Shown here piece by piece: positions 11,720 to 33,849 of a stretch of DNA of 64,000 nucleotides. Within the stretch, counting starts at the first letter, position 1; each line of letters begins with the position of its first letter. Under the pieces are notes generated by a model. That model did no database searches. It was not told where the DNA came from and was given only the letters and a program-made list of their open reading frames with translations. Source of the stretch: Dokdonia sinensis (lineage in GTDB: Bacteria > Bacteroidota > Bacteroidia > Flavobacteriales > Flavobacteriaceae); contig NZ_REFV01000006.1 of NCBI RefSeq assembly GCF_003688895.1, forward strand, positions 1 to 64,000. The letters run 5' to 3'. The translations under genes were made by a program, and so were the position numbers.

Positions 11720-14392
11720 ATGAAAAAAATACTACTACTATTAATTTTGTTTCCAGCATTAATTGGTTATTCACAATGTGTAGATCCTCTATTGACAGAT
11801 TTCGAATGTGGAACACCATCACACCCGTTTTCTGGTGGAGTGGTTGTAAATAATGTGCCCAACCCCTTCAGCGGAGGCATAAACACAAGTGCCAATGTAG
11901 GAGAGGCAACAGATAATGGTACGGAGCCCTTTGATGCCATTATAGTGGATTATGGAGCACCTATAGATTTGATGACCAACCCTATTTTTCACATAAAGGT
12001 ATACACCGAGCTAACAACACCCATACCATTTGTTGCTAAGGTAGAAGGTGGTACAACCCCCTTAGAAATTATGACTAATATCGATGTCTCGGACCAATGG
12101 CTGGAATACACTTTTGACTTTTCTTCAGTAGCAGATAGTGGCAATACCACTTTAGTTATATTCTTCAATTTTAATGAGAGCGATGGTTCGATCACAGACA
12201 CCTATTACATAGACGATATCTTTTTTGCTCCTGCTGAAGAAGATACTATGTGTGTGGATCCTATACTATCTGATTTCGAATGTGATCTTCCATCACATCC
12301 CTTTTCTGGTGGAGTGGTTGTAAACAATGTTCCAAACCCTTTCAGCGGTGGCATAAACGTAAGTGCAAATGTGGGAGAGGCAACAGATAATGGTACGGAG
12401 CCCTTTGATGCTATTATAGTGGATTATGGAGCACCTATTGATTTGATGACCAACCCTATTTTTCACATAAAGGTATACACAGAGCTTACAACACCCATAC
12501 CATTTGTTGCTAAGGTAGAAGGAGGCACAACGCCCCTAGAAATAATGACCAATATCGATGTCTCTGACCAGTGGGTGGAATACACTTTTGACTTTTCTTC
12601 AGTAGCAGATAGTGGCAATACCACTTTAGTTATATTCTTCAATTTTAATGAGAGCGATGGTTCTGTCACAGACACCTATTATATAGACGATCTCTTCTTT
12701 GCTCCAGCAGATACTATGTGTGTAGACCCGATACTATCTGATTTCGAATGCGATCTTCCATCACACCCCTTTTCTGGTGGAGTGGTTGTAAACAATGTTC
12801 CAAACCCTTTCAGTGGCGGCATAAATGTAAGTGCAAATGTGGGAGAGGCAACAGATAATGGTACAGAGCCCTTTGATGCTATTATAGTGGATTATGGAGC
12901 ACCTATTGATTTGATGACCAACCCTATTTTTCACATAAAGGTATACACCGAGCTTACAACGCCCATACCATTTGTTGCTAAGGTAGAAGGTGGCACAGCC
13001 CCCCTAGAAATAATGACAAATCTTGATGTCTCGGACCAATGGGTGGAATACACTTTTGATTTTTCTTCTGTAGCAGATAGTGGCAATACTACCTTAGTCA
13101 TATTCTTCAATTTTAATGAGAGCGATGGTTCTGTCACAGACACCTACTACATAGACGATCTTTTCTTTGCTCCCGCTGAAGAAGAAGAAGGTACAATGTG
13201 TGCCGATCCTGTACTATCTGATTTCGAGTGTGATCTTCCATCACACCCGTTTTCTGGTGGAGTAGTCGTAAACAATATTGCTAACCCTTTCGTTGGTGGA
13301 TTTAATACAAGTGCAAACGTGGGCGAAGCAATAGATGATGGAACGGAGCCACTTGATGCGATAATAGTGGATTACGGAGCACCTATTGACCTTTTAACCA
13401 ATCCAATATTTCACATTAAAGTTTACAAGACAATTACAGGGCCAATACCTCTTGTGGCCAAGGTAGAAGGTGGAACGACTCCTTTAGAGATTATGACGGT
13501 GATGGATGTATCTGATCAGTGGGTGGAATACACTTTTAACTTTTCTTCAGTGGCAGATAGTGGCAATACAACATTAGTCATATTCTTCAACTTTAATGAG
13601 AGCGATGGTTCGGTTAATGACACCTACTATATTGATGACCTTTTCTTTGCTCCGGCAGATAGTATGTGTGAGGATCCAATAATTACAGACTTTGAATGTG
13701 ACCTACCATCGCAACCCATATCGGGCGCATTGCAAAATATTCCTAATCCATTTGAGGGCACCGCAAATCCAAGTGAATTCGTAGGAGAGTACACGGATGA
13801 AGGGGGTGATGCTTTTGACAATATTGCTGTTAATTACACAATGCCCATAGATCTTTCAACAAATAACAAATTCCGACTCAAAATTTACACCTCTCAAACT
13901 ACGAACTTATTAGTAAAACTTGAAGGAGGAACTTCTCCAGCAGTTGAACTTGGAAATATTGGTGACCAGGGTGATAATATTGATGAACTTAATTCTTGGA
14001 CTGAATACGAATTTGATTTTAGTGATCAGGCAGGAGAAAATCACGAGCGTTTAGTACTTTTCTTTAATGCCGGGAATGAGCAAGATGAAAACGAAACTTT
14101 CTTTATAGATGATTTAAGATGGGAATCCGAATCTTTAAGTATAAACTCATCTGATGAACAATCCATTATCAGTATCTACCCTAATCCATCTAGGGATATC
14201 ATCCATATATCTTCAAAGTCTGAAATCATTGGCTTCGAGATGTTTGATATTTCTGGGAAGAATGTAAAAAAGCATGTTTTGGGAAGTAGCAGTATTTCTA
14301 GAATTGATATCTCATCATTAGTGCCTGGGTTATATTTCCTAACTCTTAAGAGCAGCACTGGAAATCAAACGCTAAAGGTTCTTAAAAGATAA
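11720..14392 (+). CDS. Secreted protein of five tandem ~156-residue modules with a T9SS type A tail
   Basis: I do not recognise a named family. A signal peptide (MKKILLLLILFPALIGYSQ) is followed by five modules beginning at nt 11777, 12251, 12719, 13199 and 13667. Each starts C-x-DP-h-h-(S/T)DFEC, continues with NPF.GG.N.S.NVGE..D.GTEPFDAI and ends with a jelly-roll-like segment (WVEYTFDFSSVADSGN, IFFNFNESDG, YYIDD). Modules 1-3 are nearly identical, 4 is diverged and 5 more so. The last roughly 75 residues (SIYPNPS..., ...LKVLKR) form a T9SS type A sorting domain, so the protein is exported and attached at the surface. The beta-sandwich repeats and PUL position suggest multivalent glycan binding; this is inference. 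No catalytic motif is visible. Confidence 0.85.
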   Translation: MKKILLLLILFPALIGYSQCVDPLLTDFECGTPSHPFSGGVVVNNVPNPFSGGINTSANVGEATDNGTEPFDAIIVDYGAPIDLMTNPIFHIKVYTELTTPIPFVAKVEGGTTPLEIMTNIDVSDQWLEYTFDFSSVADSGNTTLVIFFNFNESDGSITDTYYIDDIFFAPAEEDTMCVDPILSDFECDLPSHPFSGGVVVNNVPNPFSGGINVSANVGEATDNGTEPFDAIIVDYGAPIDLMTNPIFHIKVYTELTTPIPFVAKVEGGTTPLEIMTNIDVSDQWVEYTFDFSSVADSGNTTLVIFFNFNESDGSVTDTYYIDDLFFAPADTMCVDPILSDFECDLPSHPFSGGVVVNNVPNPFSGGINVSANVGEATDNGTEPFDAIIVDYGAPIDLMTNPIFHIKVYTELTTPIPFVAKVEGGTAPLEIMTNLDVSDQWVEYTFDFSSVADSGNTTLVIFFNFNESDGSVTDTYYIDDLFFAPAEEEEGTMCADPVLSDFECDLPSHPFSGGVVVNNIANPFVGGFNTSANVGEAIDDGTEPLDAIIVDYGAPIDLLTNPIFHIKVYKTITGPIPLVAKVEGGTTPLEIMTVMDVSDQWVEYTFNFSSVADSGNTTLVIFFNFNESDGSVNDTYYIDDLFFAPADSMCEDPIITDFECDLPSQPISGALQNIPNPFEGTANPSEFVGEYTDEGGDAFDNIAVNYTMPIDLSTNNKFRLKIYTSQTTNLLVKLEGGTSPAVELGNIGDQGDNIDELNSWTEYEFDFSDQAGENHERLVLFFNAGNEQDENETFFIDDLRWESESLSINSSDEQSIISIYPNPSRDIIHISSKSEIIGFEMFDISGKNVKKHVLGSSSISRIDISSLVPGLYFLTLKSSTGNQTLKVLKR
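11777..14130 (+). repeat. Five tandem ~470-bp DNA repeats inside the surface-protein gene
   Basis: Repeat starts lie at 11777, 12251, 12719, 13199 and 13667, spaced 474, 468, 480 and 468 bp, all multiples of three. Copies 1-3 match over long stretches at the DNA level, including third codon positions, while the linker lengths vary by acidic codons (GAAGAA runs). Copy 4 is clearly diverged and copy 5 strongly so. This gradient points to recent duplication or gene conversion among the first three. Read assembly could collapse or expand this region. Confidence 0.9.
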
Positions 14393-17193: not shown

Positions 17194-17210
17194 GCGGAGA
17201 AAGTGGGATT
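17194..17210 (-). repeat. Partial copy of the tRNA-Ser 3' end
   Basis: GCGGAGAAAGTGGGATT differs at one base from 17374-17390, the 3' end of tRNA-Ser plus one flanking base. The two are direct repeats 180 bp apart. The following bases no longer match the tRNA. This is the kind of direct repeat left by integrases that use tRNA 3' ends, or by an unequal duplication. Confidence 0.6.
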
Positions 17211-17248
17211 AATTCCATTGATCCCTACAATCTCCCCTAGTGACAATA

Positions 17249-17366: not shown

Positions 17367-17374
17367 GCTCTAAG

Positions 17375-17459
17375 CGGAGAAAGAGGGATTCGAACCCCCG
17401 GAGGTGTGACCCTCAACAGTTTTCAAGACTGCCGCATTCGACCACTCTGCCATTTCTCC
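17375..17459 (-). tRNA. tRNA-Ser (anticodon UGA)
   Basis: An 85-nt class II tRNA on the minus strand. The acceptor stem GGAGAAA/TTTCTCC pairs fully, the D arm contains GAGTGGTCGAATGC, the anticodon loop CTTGAAA gives UGA, there is a long variable arm, and the T arm contains GGTTCGAATCC. CCA is not encoded. A TATATTTG promoter element lies upstream (17496-17503). Confidence 0.97.
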
Positions 17460-19554: not shown

Positions 19555-20871
19555 TTATCCTTGGCCTTGGCCTTGGAGCTCTTGACCTATAGCCTGTACT
19601 TCATCCAGAACACGTAATAAATTACCGCTCCATAAAGCGCTTATTTCATCTTCGGAGTAGCCACGCCTTACTAGCTCTACTGTCACGTTAATAGTTTCAG
19701 AAGCGTCGCTCCATCCTTCTATGCCACCACCACCGTCAAAATCCGAACTTATACCTACATGCTTGAGTCCCATTTTTTCAACTAGGTAATCTATATGGTC
19801 TACGAAGTCGGCAACGTTTACTGCAGGAGGGAGGTTGTCCATTTTGGCGAGTTTTGCTTTTTGGATGGGTAACATTTCCTGATATTTTTCATAGTAAGCC
19901 ATACGCTCTGCGACTGGTAATACCATTACATCTTTGCGTTCCATATAAGTCACGCCCATAGAGTCGGCTATTTTTTTAAGAACTTGATTTTCTGCTTCGG
20001 CGCGCTTATCATTTTTCTCTGTGTTTAGGTAACTTTTAAAGGCTACTGTTTGTACAACGCCTCCATTTTCTTGAAGCCACTTTAACTGTTCATCATCTAG
20101 ATTACGGCTGTGATCGCAAAGTGCTCTTGCGCTAGAGTGGGAGGCGATAAGTGGTGCTTTACTGAGTTCGATCATCTGACGCATTGCTTCCTTACTGGGG
20201 TGCGAGACGTCTATCATCATTCCCAATCTGTTCATTTCGGCTACTACTTCTTTTCCTAAATCACTTAATCCGTTATGTAGCCAGACGTTGTCTTCCTCAC
20301 CAGTATTGCTATCGCTTAACTGGCTATGACCGTTGTGAGCGAGAGACATATAGCGTCCGCCCATTTCATAAAAACGGGCAACATTACTTATGTCTTCTCC
20401 CACAGGGTATCCATTCTCGATGCCTATCATCGCTACTTTTTTTCCAGATTTCCAAATTTCGCGTGCTTGAGCAGAAGTTGTCGCAAGTTGTATCTGGTCT
20501 GGTGCTATGTCCTTACAAAGTTTATGGATAGCGTCAAATTTAGAAATGGCATTCTCATACGCCTTTTTATAGCCTTCTGCATTGAGCGAGTCTTGACCTG
20601 TGTAAACTATGAACCACGGCACGTCCAGACCGCCTTCGATCATTTTAGGAAGGTTTACTTGAGAGGTAAGTCGCTGGGTATAATTGATACTGTCTGTAAA
20701 ATTTTTGACATTAATATCGCAATGCGTGTCTAGCGTCATTACGCGTTCGTGTATGGCTTTAGCTTCTGCAATAATTTCGGCTTCTGTCATTTCTTTTGGT
20801 TGTTCGCTTACTTGATCCTTGCATGCGATTAACAGCAGGCATAAAGCAATTATCTTAAGATTGTTTTTCAT
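19555..20871 (-). CDS. M19 (renal-type) membrane dipeptidase lipoprotein
   Basis: Zinc dipeptidase of the amidohydrolase fold, cutting dipeptides (often including D-amino-acid ones) at the cell envelope. The metal-binding landmarks are in order: TLDTHCDIN (HxD), GIENGYPVG (bridging Glu), LAHNGHSQLSD, DVSHPSKE and APLIASHSSARALCDHSRNLDD, then GISSDFDGGGGIEGW. I start at the ATG giving a lipobox (LLLIACKD); an upstream start would add 15 residues without purpose. The C terminus ends in QGQGQG, coded by a CCTTGG triplet of repeats at 19560-19575. No obvious operon partner. Confidence 0.93.
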   Translation of the reverse strand: MKNNLKIIALCLLLIACKDQVSEQPKEMTEAEIIAEAKAIHERVMTLDTHCDINVKNFTDSINYTQRLTSQVNLPKMIEGGLDVPWFIVYTGQDSLNAEGYKKAYENAISKFDAIHKLCKDIAPDQIQLATTSAQAREIWKSGKKVAMIGIENGYPVGEDISNVARFYEMGGRYMSLAHNGHSQLSDSNTGEEDNVWLHNGLSDLGKEVVAEMNRLGMMIDVSHPSKEAMRQMIELSKAPLIASHSSARALCDHSRNLDDEQLKWLQENGGVVQTVAFKSYLNTEKNDKRAEAENQVLKKIADSMGVTYMERKDVMVLPVAERMAYYEKYQEMLPIQKAKLAKMDNLPPAVNVADFVDHIDYLVEKMGLKHVGISSDFDGGGGIEGWSDASETINVTVELVRRGYSEDEISALWSGNLLRVLDEVQAIGQELQGQGQG

Positions 20872-21004
20872 TGTCTTATCATTAATTTGAGTTTCTAAGG
20901 TACGTAATAAATACACTTGTTTGATTATTGATTTTGCTCCTAAAAGAGATTATAAACAAATCTTTACGAAAGCATAATCAACTATTGGACTAGTGGATAA
21001 GGCT

Positions 21005-21026: not shown

Positions 21027-21162
21027 TTGATTGTAGGTGATAATTTTGAGACCGGGATTGAAGAAATAATTTGAACAAGAAAGGAAAGTTCTATTTGTAG
21101 CACAAAAGAGAAATTTTTAGAAGCTTAATGGTCGAGAAAGTTCCAAAATGTCTAGGGTGACC

Positions 21163-21995
21163 TTAGAAAGGTTGTAAGATCCCGCTATTGGCGTGACGAC
21201 ATTTTTTTAAATCAAACTTATGTTTTTTCGAATAAAAAAAGTCCCCAGATTGATCTGAGGACTTTAGAAAGGGTGGAAGATCACGCTGTTGGCGTGACGA
21301 CATTTTTTTAAATCAAACTTATTTTTTATCGAATAAAAAAAGTCCCCAGATTGCTCTGAGGACTTTAGAAAGGTTGGAAGATCACGCTGTTGGCGTGACG
21401 ACATCTTTTTATAAAATCGAATTTATATTTTTTGAACAAAAAAAAGTCCCCAGATTGCTCTGAGGACTTTAGAAAGGTTGGAAGATCACGCTGTTGGCGT
21501 GACGACATCTTTTTGTAAAATCGAACTTATATTTTTTGAACAAAAAAAAGTCCCCAGATTGCTCTGAGGACTTTAGAAAGGGTGGAAGATCACGCTGTTG
21601 GCGTGACGACATTTTTTTGTAAAATCGAACTTATATTTTTTGAACAAAAAAAAGTCCCCAGATTGCTCTGAGGACTTTAGAAAGGGTGGAAGATCACGCT
21701 GTTGGCGTGACGACATTTTTTTTGTAAAATCGAACTTATATTTTTTGAACAAAAAAAAGTCCCCAGATTGCTCTGAGGACTTTAGAAAGGGTGGAAGATC
21801 ACACTGTTGGCGTGACGACATTTTTTTTGTAAAATCGAACTTATATTTTTTGAACAAAAAAAAGTCCCCAGATTGCTCTGAGGACTTTAGAAAGGGTGGA
21901 AGATCACGCTGTTGGCGTGACGACATTTTTTTAAATCAAACTTATTTTTTATCGAATAAAAAAAGTCCCCAGATTGCTCTGAGGACTTTAGAAAG
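21163..21995 (-). repeat. Tandem array of ~104-bp tRNA-His-end/terminator units
   Basis: The conserved GTCCCC of the hairpin recurs at 21241, 21342, 21446, 21550, 21654, 21759, 21864 and 21965 (spacing 101, 104, 104, 104, 105, 105, 101). Read on the minus strand, each unit has an AT-rich spacer with TAAGTTTG or TAAGTTCG, a GTCG plus TCACGC/GCGTGA hairpin, the tRNA-His 3' end CTTCCACCC, TTTCTAAA, and a terminator hairpin ending in seven or more Ts. The copy nearest position 21965 is the real tRNA-His terminator. The leftmost copy (21163-21240) is decayed. Units are near-identical, so the array is recent or kept uniform. Confidence 0.92.
21958..21987 (-). terminator. Terminator of tRNA-His
   Basis: On the minus strand AGTCC-T-CAGA and TCTG-G-GGACT form a stem around GCAA, followed by seven Ts. 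It is the first of eight copies in the array. Confidence 0.85.
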
Positions 21996-22070
21996 GGTGG
22001 AAGACCGGTCTCGAACCGGCGACCTCTGGTACCACAAACCAGCGCTCTAACCAACTGAGCTACAACCACC
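21996..22070 (-). tRNA. tRNA-His (anticodon GUG)
   Basis: Minus-strand tRNA with the D arm GCTCAGTTGGTTAGAGC, anticodon loop TTGTGGT (GUG) on a CTGGT/ACCAG stem, and T arm around GGTTCGAGACC. The extra G at -1 can pair with C73, the hallmark of tRNA-His. CCA is not encoded. Acceptor pairs 5-68 and 6-67 are U-U as read here (GTGGTTG against CTTCCAC), which I believe is tolerated in related flavobacteria but could not check. Confidence 0.96.
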
Positions 22071-33803: not shown

Positions 33804-33849
33804 GAACTCGAACTCGAACTCGAACTCGAACTCGAACTTGAACTCGAAA
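33804..33849. repeat. Hexanucleotide microsatellite (GAACTC)n
   Basis: About seven and a half units of GAACTC, one of them GAACTT, between the metallo-beta-lactamase stop and the CDGSH gene start 35 bp away. It is noncoding. Slippage would change the leader length of the CDGSH gene. Confidence 0.85.

Follow-up and report, generated by a model that had tools for sequence, protein, structure and literature searches.

A tandem array of tRNA-His ends with a replaced T arm in Dokdonia sinensis and its possible kinship with small GIY-YIG elements at tRNA genes

Why is a tRNA gene followed by eight copies of its own 3' end, each with one arm exchanged for an unrelated hairpin? The question arises from a stretch of 64,000 nucleotides of Dokdonia sinensis (assembly GCF_003688895.1, contig NZ_REFV01000006.1, positions 1 to 64,000; hereafter the window), which belongs to a genome of 3.65 Mb. 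On its minus strand lies a tRNA-His (GTG) gene with an intact T loop, TTCGAGA, at 21995..22069, and a tandem array of eight units with a period of 101-105 bp follows downstream. An earlier reading, the sequence-only reading, had seen in these units serial small-RNA cassettes or else scars of repeated recombination at the tRNA end. The analysis reported here suggests the scar of a little-known tRNA-gene parasite rather than a row of small-RNA genes. On balance, with a confidence only slightly better than even, we assign the array to a family of small elements, made up of GIY-YIG genes and palindromes, that target tRNA genes; it would be a member that lacks the nuclease and was amplified locally.

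Anatomy of the array behind tRNA-His

Tandem Repeats Finder (TRF) placed the limits of the array at 21159..22004 on the minus strand, with a period of 104, 8.2 copies and a score of 1395. A single type of terminator, a stem-loop and then a T run, was found eight times, at 21962..21989, 21861..21888, 21756..21783, 21651..21678, 21547..21574, 21443..21470, 21339..21366 and 21238..21265 (minus strand; the eighth differs in a single loop base). The steps between them are 101, 105, 105, 104, 104, 104 and 101 bp, and both this spacing and the TRF result agree with the eight tRNA-His terminators every 101-105 bp that had been described.

On the minus strand each terminator is succeeded by an AT-rich spacer ending in TGTC, a 19-nt hairpin and a 9-nt tail, the latter matching the 3' strand of the tRNA-His acceptor stem. 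The hairpin and tail of units 1 to 8 occupy 21894..21921, 21789..21816, 21684..21711, 21580..21607, 21476..21503, 21372..21399, 21271..21298 and 21170..21197, respectively, all on the minus strand. In unit 1 the substitute for the T arm reads GTCACGC CAACA GCGTGAT. The real T arm, GCCGG TTCGAGA CCGGT, is absent from all eight units and the tail is kept. A CGTC-tagged REP would be a palindrome of 20-40 bp whose CGTC stays unpaired at one end; here CGTCACGC starts the hairpin in every unit, but its GTC pairs with GAT in the fold. With up to three mismatches allowed, hairpin plus tail was found 8 times in the window, and 100 shuffles gave no match. The tail is CTTCCACCC in five of the eight units (1 to 4 and 7), CTTCCAACC in units 5 and 6 and CTTACAACC in unit 8; an acceptor-stem tail in each unit was thus rightly claimed, but its exact form holds for five only. 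Likewise the 6-bp hairpin that resembles a T arm is present, but the loop, given as 5 to 7 nt, has 5 nt in 8/8 units and the stem is intact in only six. The hairpin of unit 2 (21798-21816) keeps its stem through a G-U pair, as had been noted, and the stem of unit 8, the most distal, is broken by a mismatch. Unit 8 also has no terminator after it, and with that exception the units do end at terminators of their own, as had been proposed. The idea that the hairpin mimics a T arm was correct, and it was the T-arm position that led to the whole family described below.

The spacers are of two types, one with TAAGTTTG in units 1, 7 and 8 and the other in units 2-6. Overall the units are 84-100% alike. 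Because units 1 and 7 are 100% identical despite five intervening, less similar units (87-90% like those two), recombination inside the array is indicated. The acceptor stem of tRNA-His itself appears by eye to contain two adjacent U-U mismatches (GTGGTTG / CTTCCAC), with the same letters in most relatives shown.

A tRNA-His gene was found in 118 of 118 genomes, our own included, and the loci of 29 relatives, of which 11 are genus-mates, were examined. The search for the unit next to tRNA-His in relatives, which the sequence-only reading had called for, gave none, since no tail array is present at any of the 29 loci. The relatives examined have one terminator behind tRNA-His, and one locus (L026) has a second full tRNA-His. 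In genome G023 (L031, 1350-1510 and 1851-2210) two decayed 5'-half copies, in which an AT-rich hairpin replaces the anticodon arm, lie upstream of tRNA-His, and a Y1 transposase gene lies ~280 bp behind it. The exact hairpin plus tail had 0 matches in a genome-contig collection and the exact hairpin 0 in a viral-contig collection, both scans possibly omitting near relatives.

Arm-swapped tRNA copies and their GIY-YIG neighbors

This type of array is not private to tRNA-His. In the same genome, with 37 tRNA matches, 36 tRNA entries sampled and 33 distinct tRNAs examined, copies were found at tRNA-Pro, Val, Gln, Ser, Leu and Cys, and a private array of small RNAs was dropped as the lead idea. 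The tRNA-Pro(GGG) gene (L065, 5112-5711) has arm-swapped arrays on both sides and an adjoining GIY-YIG gene. On its 5' side, each 81-bp unit is a 5' half of the tRNA in which TCCCGC TTGTG GCGGGA stands in for the anticodon arm; this array spans an assembly N gap and its copy number is unsure. On its 3' side, 37-bp units have the T arm replaced by CCACGC CCGAAA GCGTGG, followed by the tail. The second copy of tRNA-Val has TCCCGAA TTTAC TTCGGGA in place of the anticodon arm and is labelled 'tRNA-Stop' by ARAGORN. At tRNA-Leu(CAA) a 5' piece capped by TCCCGAT AGTA ATCGGGA is accompanied by a tail copy, and behind tRNA-Cys a 3'-half copy lies at ~0.7 kb (L057), with toxin-antitoxin-like genes between them by eye. 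Tail copies with tail-complementary sequence in front were observed at tRNA-Gln and tRNA-Ser(TGA). The latter is in the window, on the minus strand, and takes up the theme of the His array in single form: the gene at 17374..17459 is the source of a single tail copy, ATCCCACTTTCTCCGC, at 17194..17237, with the complementary GGGAT and an 11-nt loop before it and a terminator-like stem after it. In this genome the tRNA-Pro(GGG) tail array is immediately followed by a GIY-YIG open reading frame (ORF), another such ORF separates tRNA-Val from its arm-swapped copy, and both pass PF01541. In the genus-mate G004 no partial tail copies were found at the 28 tRNAs examined of 46 matches, only a full tandem tRNA-Val.

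The same hairpin word recurs in the genus. The pattern TCGYCACGC-N4..8-GCGTGR had 16 matches in 18 genus genomes, against 0 for the reversed control. Nine exact matches are in our own genome, all within two tRNA arrays (six in the His array and three in the tRNA-Pro GGG tail array), so that the pattern is not a high-copy repeat of the whole genome. The other seven were found in four of the 17 genus-mates, and four of these are in T-arm position: G014 has three at its tRNA-Pro(TGG), and the fourth belongs to a tRNA-Gly fragment, or pseudo-tRNA-Gly, in G015. The G014 locus begins with two successive copies of a pseudo-tRNA-Pro, with the T arm TCACGC TTGAG GCGTGA, plus a GIY-YIG ORF; the real tRNA-Pro follows, and then two tail copies that carry TCACGC CTGAA GCGTGA, the second hairpin being decayed. 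Of all loci found, this one is most closely related to the window array. A hairpin TCGTCACGC-loop-GCGTGA was also seen at ~1501 of both L342 and L344, in a similar non-tRNA context of two genus-mates and with no Rfam match at the gathering score.

GIY-YIG domains were sampled from the best 80 of at least ~150 listed regions by E-value, together with ten loci of our own genome and L346, which gave 102 domains in 91 loci with one own locus counted twice; here and below, near-copies within single arrays enter the counts of arms, cores and GIY-YIG domains, which are therefore not numbers of independent events. ARAGORN called a tRNA, pseudo-tRNA labels included, within 300 bp of 14 of the 102 domains and within 1 kb of 20, and all 20 are on the same strand as the tRNA. 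When four domains known beforehand and the doubled locus were left out, the numbers were 11/97 and 16/97, again all on the same strand, in 10 of 87 loci. Chance would place about 1 of the 102 within 300 bp, by arithmetic from 37 tRNA matches in 3.65 Mb and not as a tool output. The tRNA-linked proteins are single domains of about 80 amino acids. In a tree of 98 domains and 86 columns, 19 rows have a tRNA no more than 800 bp away; 18 of them fall into one clade of 25 (support 99/95), and the tRNA-adjacency label required 6 changes, compared with 17.7 in shuffles. Inspection of the flanks revealed tRNA-Met or tRNA-Val sequence at four more clade members, which brings the tRNA-linked ones to 22 of 25. 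The Val-linked rows form a supported group, and so do two Pro types. The remaining three members (L409, L424 and L426) lie in or beside protein genes. In L424 (~1534-1900) and L409 the GIY-YIG gene appears by eye to separate the intact start of an epimerase-like gene from a duplicate of that start, which looks like the same copying of the target in a protein gene.

Several loci combine nuclease and tRNA copy in tandem. G016 has three tandem units of a GIY-YIG gene, a 3' part of tRNA-Val with the anticodon arm ATCCCGATTTTACATCGGGA, and a terminator; G028 has two GIY-YIG/tRNA-Val units and a fragment; and G116 has an insertion in the T loop of tRNA-Met. In our own tRNA-Val element and in the tRNA-Pro element of G014, the GIY-YIG ORF ends inside the start of the tRNA or tRNA copy. 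Perfect GC hairpins, terminators included, numbered 65 in 56 kb of sequence within 300 bp of GIY-YIG domains, compared with 19 in 153 kb more than 600 bp away. Repeats similar to CTGAGCNNNGTCGAAG are 16-fold denser near GIY-YIG (18 vs 3) and come from only 8 of the 91 loci. Tandem GIY-YIG matches ~310-365 bp apart were also seen on contig 224 of G106, contig 6 of G035 and contig 8 of G059.

A second, wider cassette with a T-loop core

Paired tRNA-His tails 51-111 nt apart were found in 26 of 397 family genomes, our own included. Among the 30 loci listed, ten genomes besides our own have duplications on reading; G221 has no tRNA in the retrieved stretch, and most other paired-tail matches, G128 included, look like chance. 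In six of the ten a core, GAGAAGTTTATNNTGAGCNNNGTCGAA, lies between the terminator and the tail copy with at most two mismatches, and in the other four it is variant or decayed by eye. At the same threshold the core had 30 matches in eight of the 11 array genomes. Three of them are in our own genome, none at a tRNA, and for the core with tail-complementary arms the His array is not among the own-genome matches at up to two mismatches. A decayed T-loop cassette does lie at tRNA-Gln of this genome. In the window, a possible decayed and inverted core (GGTCGAGAAAGTT...GTGACC, with the His-type arms GGTC/GACC) can weakly be made out by eye on the plus strand at 21130..21162.

The exact core occurs in at least 119 stretches of the genome-contig collection, of which 80 loci with 100 matches were listed. 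Among these 100, a tRNA lies upstream on the same strand within 1500 bp in 88 and within 150 bp in 74, and in 61 of those 74 the core is followed by at least 10 nt identical to the tail of that very tRNA. Of the 12 listed matches without a tRNA, nine have a tRNA-like tail by eye and three (L210, L214 and L237) have none. The matches listed involve 13 tRNA isotypes, and since the core pattern was derived from tRNA-His loci, the other isotypes serve as an independent check. Still among the matches listed, the loci with both tRNA and tail belong to Bacteroidota, mostly Flavobacteriaceae, and to Patescibacteria, and there is one Pedobacter match without a tail copy and one Omnitrophota match without a tRNA. 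At 5700-6000 of L181, from Salinimicrobium, a tRNA-Leu copy with its 5' part replaced and then a T-loop cassette were seen by eye.

The arms of the cassette covary with the tail of the host tRNA. Perfect complementarity between the tail and the five bases that precede the core was observed in 35 of the 74 cases, compared with a mean of 1.5 (maximum 5) in 300 re-pairings. The covariation score of the arm-and-core structure on 93 aligned units, whose rows are related and not independent events, was 0.307, against 0.155 when shuffled (0 of 500 shuffles reached it) and at most 0.148 when the structure was slid. Pairs changed on both sides numbered 13, not above the 11.9 of the shuffles, and only 57.6% of the outer-arm cells are paired. 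Such arms provide a test case for a palindrome that acquires its arms from its target. When 71 family genomes were compared, carriers of the core pattern, in which forms not at tRNAs are here included, had 7.15 GIY-YIG matches vs 4.65 for non-carriers (p=6e-4, not corrected for phylogeny or genome size); with the GAGAAG form only, the values were 7.13 and 4.88 (p=0.003).

A bolder explanation that we hold only tentatively, and consider rather doubtful, is that tRNA genes of Bacteroidota and some Patescibacteria host non-coding mobile palindromes that rebuild their arms from the tRNA at which they have settled and are spread in trans by the tRNA-targeting GIY-YIG clade, the His array being one local type. 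Such a palindrome would consist of the reverse complement of the tail, a conserved 31-nt core that starts at the T loop, and the tail.

Origin of the array and competing explanations

Under the explanation that we favor, in which the array is a nuclease-less relative of the GIY-YIG elements, a free-standing GIY-YIG homing endonuclease would cut a tRNA gene inside an arm. Repair would duplicate the end of the tRNA, and copies that lose the target arm would be immune to recutting. They could be kept with or without a nuclease gene between them, and unequal recombination among them would expand and homogenise them into an array. Most likely, an element of this kind at tRNA-His gave rise to the His array, or relatives of such an element produced the array in trans, and amplification came afterwards. 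The T arm would have been the cut site at tRNA-His, the responsible GIY-YIG nuclease presumably acted in trans or has since been lost, and the units probably have no host function. The scars of repeated recombination that had been suggested fit what was found, namely tRNA fragments with a swapped arm or a palindrome cap, at tRNAs of several types and in several genera, often tandem, partly beside GIY-YIG genes, and patchy among relatives (no tail array at the 29 tRNA-His loci, no partial tail copies at the examined tRNAs of G004). In the open PMC literature, which leaves most subscription papers outside its scope, neither GIY-YIG elements linked to tRNAs nor cassettes of tRNA tails were found described for Bacteroidota.

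The nearest known parallel is SegB, a free-standing GIY-YIG homing endonuclease of T-even phages. According to one report, SegB cleaves inside tRNA genes, tandem segmental amplification of tRNA and segB depends on its nuclease activity, and microhomology between the 5' end of the tRNA and the 3' end of segB may join the copies (PMC13096335). SegB homologues are described as co-localising with tRNAs in phages (PMC13096335; PMC2988022). The SegB motif is given as RAWTSGAAC (PMC13096335), which on the other strand reads GTTCSAWTY and which we infer to be a T-loop word; the terms 'T-loop' and 'T-arm' are absent from the main text of that report. As with SegB, a GIY-YIG enzyme is here encoded beside tRNA genes. 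Unlike SegB, the elements reside in bacterial chromosomes, encode single-domain proteins of ~80 amino acids, contain truncated tRNA copies with one arm swapped for a hairpin, and include Val- and Pro-linked sub-clades; moreover, the window array has no nuclease gene and cleavage is predicted.

Several observations weigh against this explanation. There is no tRNA within 1 kb in 77 of the 87 GIY-YIG loci. The tree carries a long-branch warning, with our own tRNA-Pro protein among the long branches, many of its forks stay open, and rows linked to Asp or Met tRNAs are not grouped according to their tRNA. A tblastn comparison of 102 domains with the window gave no match that would mark a GIY-YIG gene or its remains near the array (20.8-22.1 kb, E<=1). 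Three of the seven genus-mate matches to the hairpin word are not at tRNAs: G014 has one within rnpB, and G011 and G009 have one apiece elsewhere; Rfam recognised only rnpB, in L352, among the non-tRNA hairpin loci. The tRNA beside each element is intact and keeps its arms, so cutting of the donor must somehow be avoided. The T loop of tRNA-His, GTTCGAGAC, does not fit GTTCSAWTY, which 16 of the 33 own tRNAs fit; four array spacers carry GTTCGATTT. GIY-YIG ORFs were present in only 3 of 96 core loci, near the core in one; the physical link of the T-loop cassette to a nuclease is therefore weak, and the candidate in which core and GIY-YIG gene are physically linked was rejected. Cleavage of tRNA arms by these proteins, and homing, are predictions.

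Large integrating elements classically land in tRNA genes, and those that use tRNA 3' ends as attachment sites duplicate the tail from the T loop to the 3' end. The units of the arrays seen here, in contrast, are 64-113 bp long, without room for an integrase, and an inverted copy of the tail stands on the other side of the core. Thus tRNA genes also appear as the target of very small elements, namely GIY-YIG genes of ~80 codons and nuclease-free hairpin cassettes, and the host tRNA stays intact while its end is copied. If the nucleases do cut tRNA arms, the principle of SegB would extend from phages to bacterial chromosomes, and a collection of compact endonucleases with different tRNAs as targets would be at hand. 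In that case pseudo-tRNA labels such as 'tRNA-SeC' and 'tRNA-Stop', and arrays of terminators for which automatic annotation would offer no explanation, would also be accounted for.

Ordinary tandem duplication of the tRNA-His end, with slippage and unequal crossing-over and with an incidental hairpin and no mobile element, is in our view unlikely, although it survives better than the other alternatives. It agrees with the lack of the tail array at the 29 relatives' loci and of a nuclease near the array, and the two spacer types and 84-100% likeness of the units are what local duplication and conversion predict. However, it leaves unexplained why only the T arm was replaced with tail and terminator kept, why the same hairpin word stands at the same place in three other tRNA genes of three genomes, and why arm-swapped Pro and Val copies occur in the same genome. 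The rtT repeats of the Escherichia coli tyrT locus also stand in tandem behind a tRNA gene, vary in number and each contain the 3' end of that tRNA; we know of no arm swap in rtT. The window array shares the layout of serial tRNA 3' ends with them; it differs in the tRNA and in sequence, and nothing in the window besides two tRNAs matches Rfam. A 175-bp rtT variable-number tandem repeat has been described in Salmonella (PMC2658671).

We consider it improbable that the units are serial small-RNA cassettes, each transcribed into a hairpin RNA of ~70 nt that acts as a tRNA-fragment mimic or decoy. Unit 2 does fold as a hairpin plus terminator, and the covariation of T-loop cassette arms with the tRNA tail is as pairing of RNA or single-stranded DNA demands. 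Promoters of Bacteroidetes have a -33/-7 form, and TAAGTTTG, in three of the eight spacers, fits the -7 box. In all, TAAGTTTG occurs three times, TAAGTTCG four times and TAAATTCG once. The full -7 match reported earlier has no -33 partner: on the array strand the stretch 15-23 nt upstream of each TANNTTTG is free of TTG. When the window was compared with Rfam, only the two tRNAs reached the gathering score, and no tail-repeat or other RNA family did. The cassettes at tRNA-Trp start 17-20 nt after the tRNA and leave no room for a terminator, so an RNA that ends at a terminator is not general. With an incomplete promoter and no hairpin-and-tail array in the relatives examined, the small-RNA proposal was left unsupported.

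Slightly less probable again is an element of REP/RAYT type, whose palindromes would be moved by a Y1 (HuH) transposase as proposed for BIME arrays. REP/BIME, RAYT, GTAG and CGTC families are discussed in one source as short palindromes that are often clustered and hypothesised to be mobile; CGTC repeats are reported there from Bacteroidetes and said to lack a dedicated transposase, and the words 'GIY-YIG' and 'terminator' are absent from its main text (PMC3733652). The His units are tandem and palindromic too, the core resembles repeats found near GIY-YIG genes, a Y1-transposase ORF lies ~370 bp from the tRNA-His unit of G457, and the Y1 gene of G023 lies behind a tRNA-His with decayed copies on its 5' side. 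In contrast to REP repeats, which are genome-wide, each repeat here is tied to a tRNA gene and carries its tail. Y1_Tnp was present in only 5 of the 11 array genomes, its presence was not tied to the core in 71 family genomes (10/20 vs 19/51, p=0.42), and our own genome has one weak Y1 match, on a different contig. RAYT as the general mover was rejected on the 5/11 count and the lack of association.

That the array serves as a serial terminator or insulator against read-through from the tRNA promoter into a co-directional dipeptidase-like gene is very improbable: eight serial terminators and a same-strand gene downstream would suit it, but the relatives examined manage with one terminator, the tRNA-Trp cassettes have none between tRNA and core, and the hairpin and tail would remain unexplained.

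The neighboring ORFs, named by eye, are this dipeptidase-like one (19555-20916, same strand as the array, downstream) and a pirin-like one. A palindrome dispersed across the window was considered and rejected, the seven perfect GC-rich hairpins outside the array being within the range of 3-11 given by three Markov controls. Elsewhere in the window, four 468-bp tandem repeats with 87% matches at 11777-13653 probably encode protein repeats, GAACTC is repeated 7.5 times at 33804-33848, and the palindrome CTTTCGCGAAAG occurs 13 times in the 64 kb.

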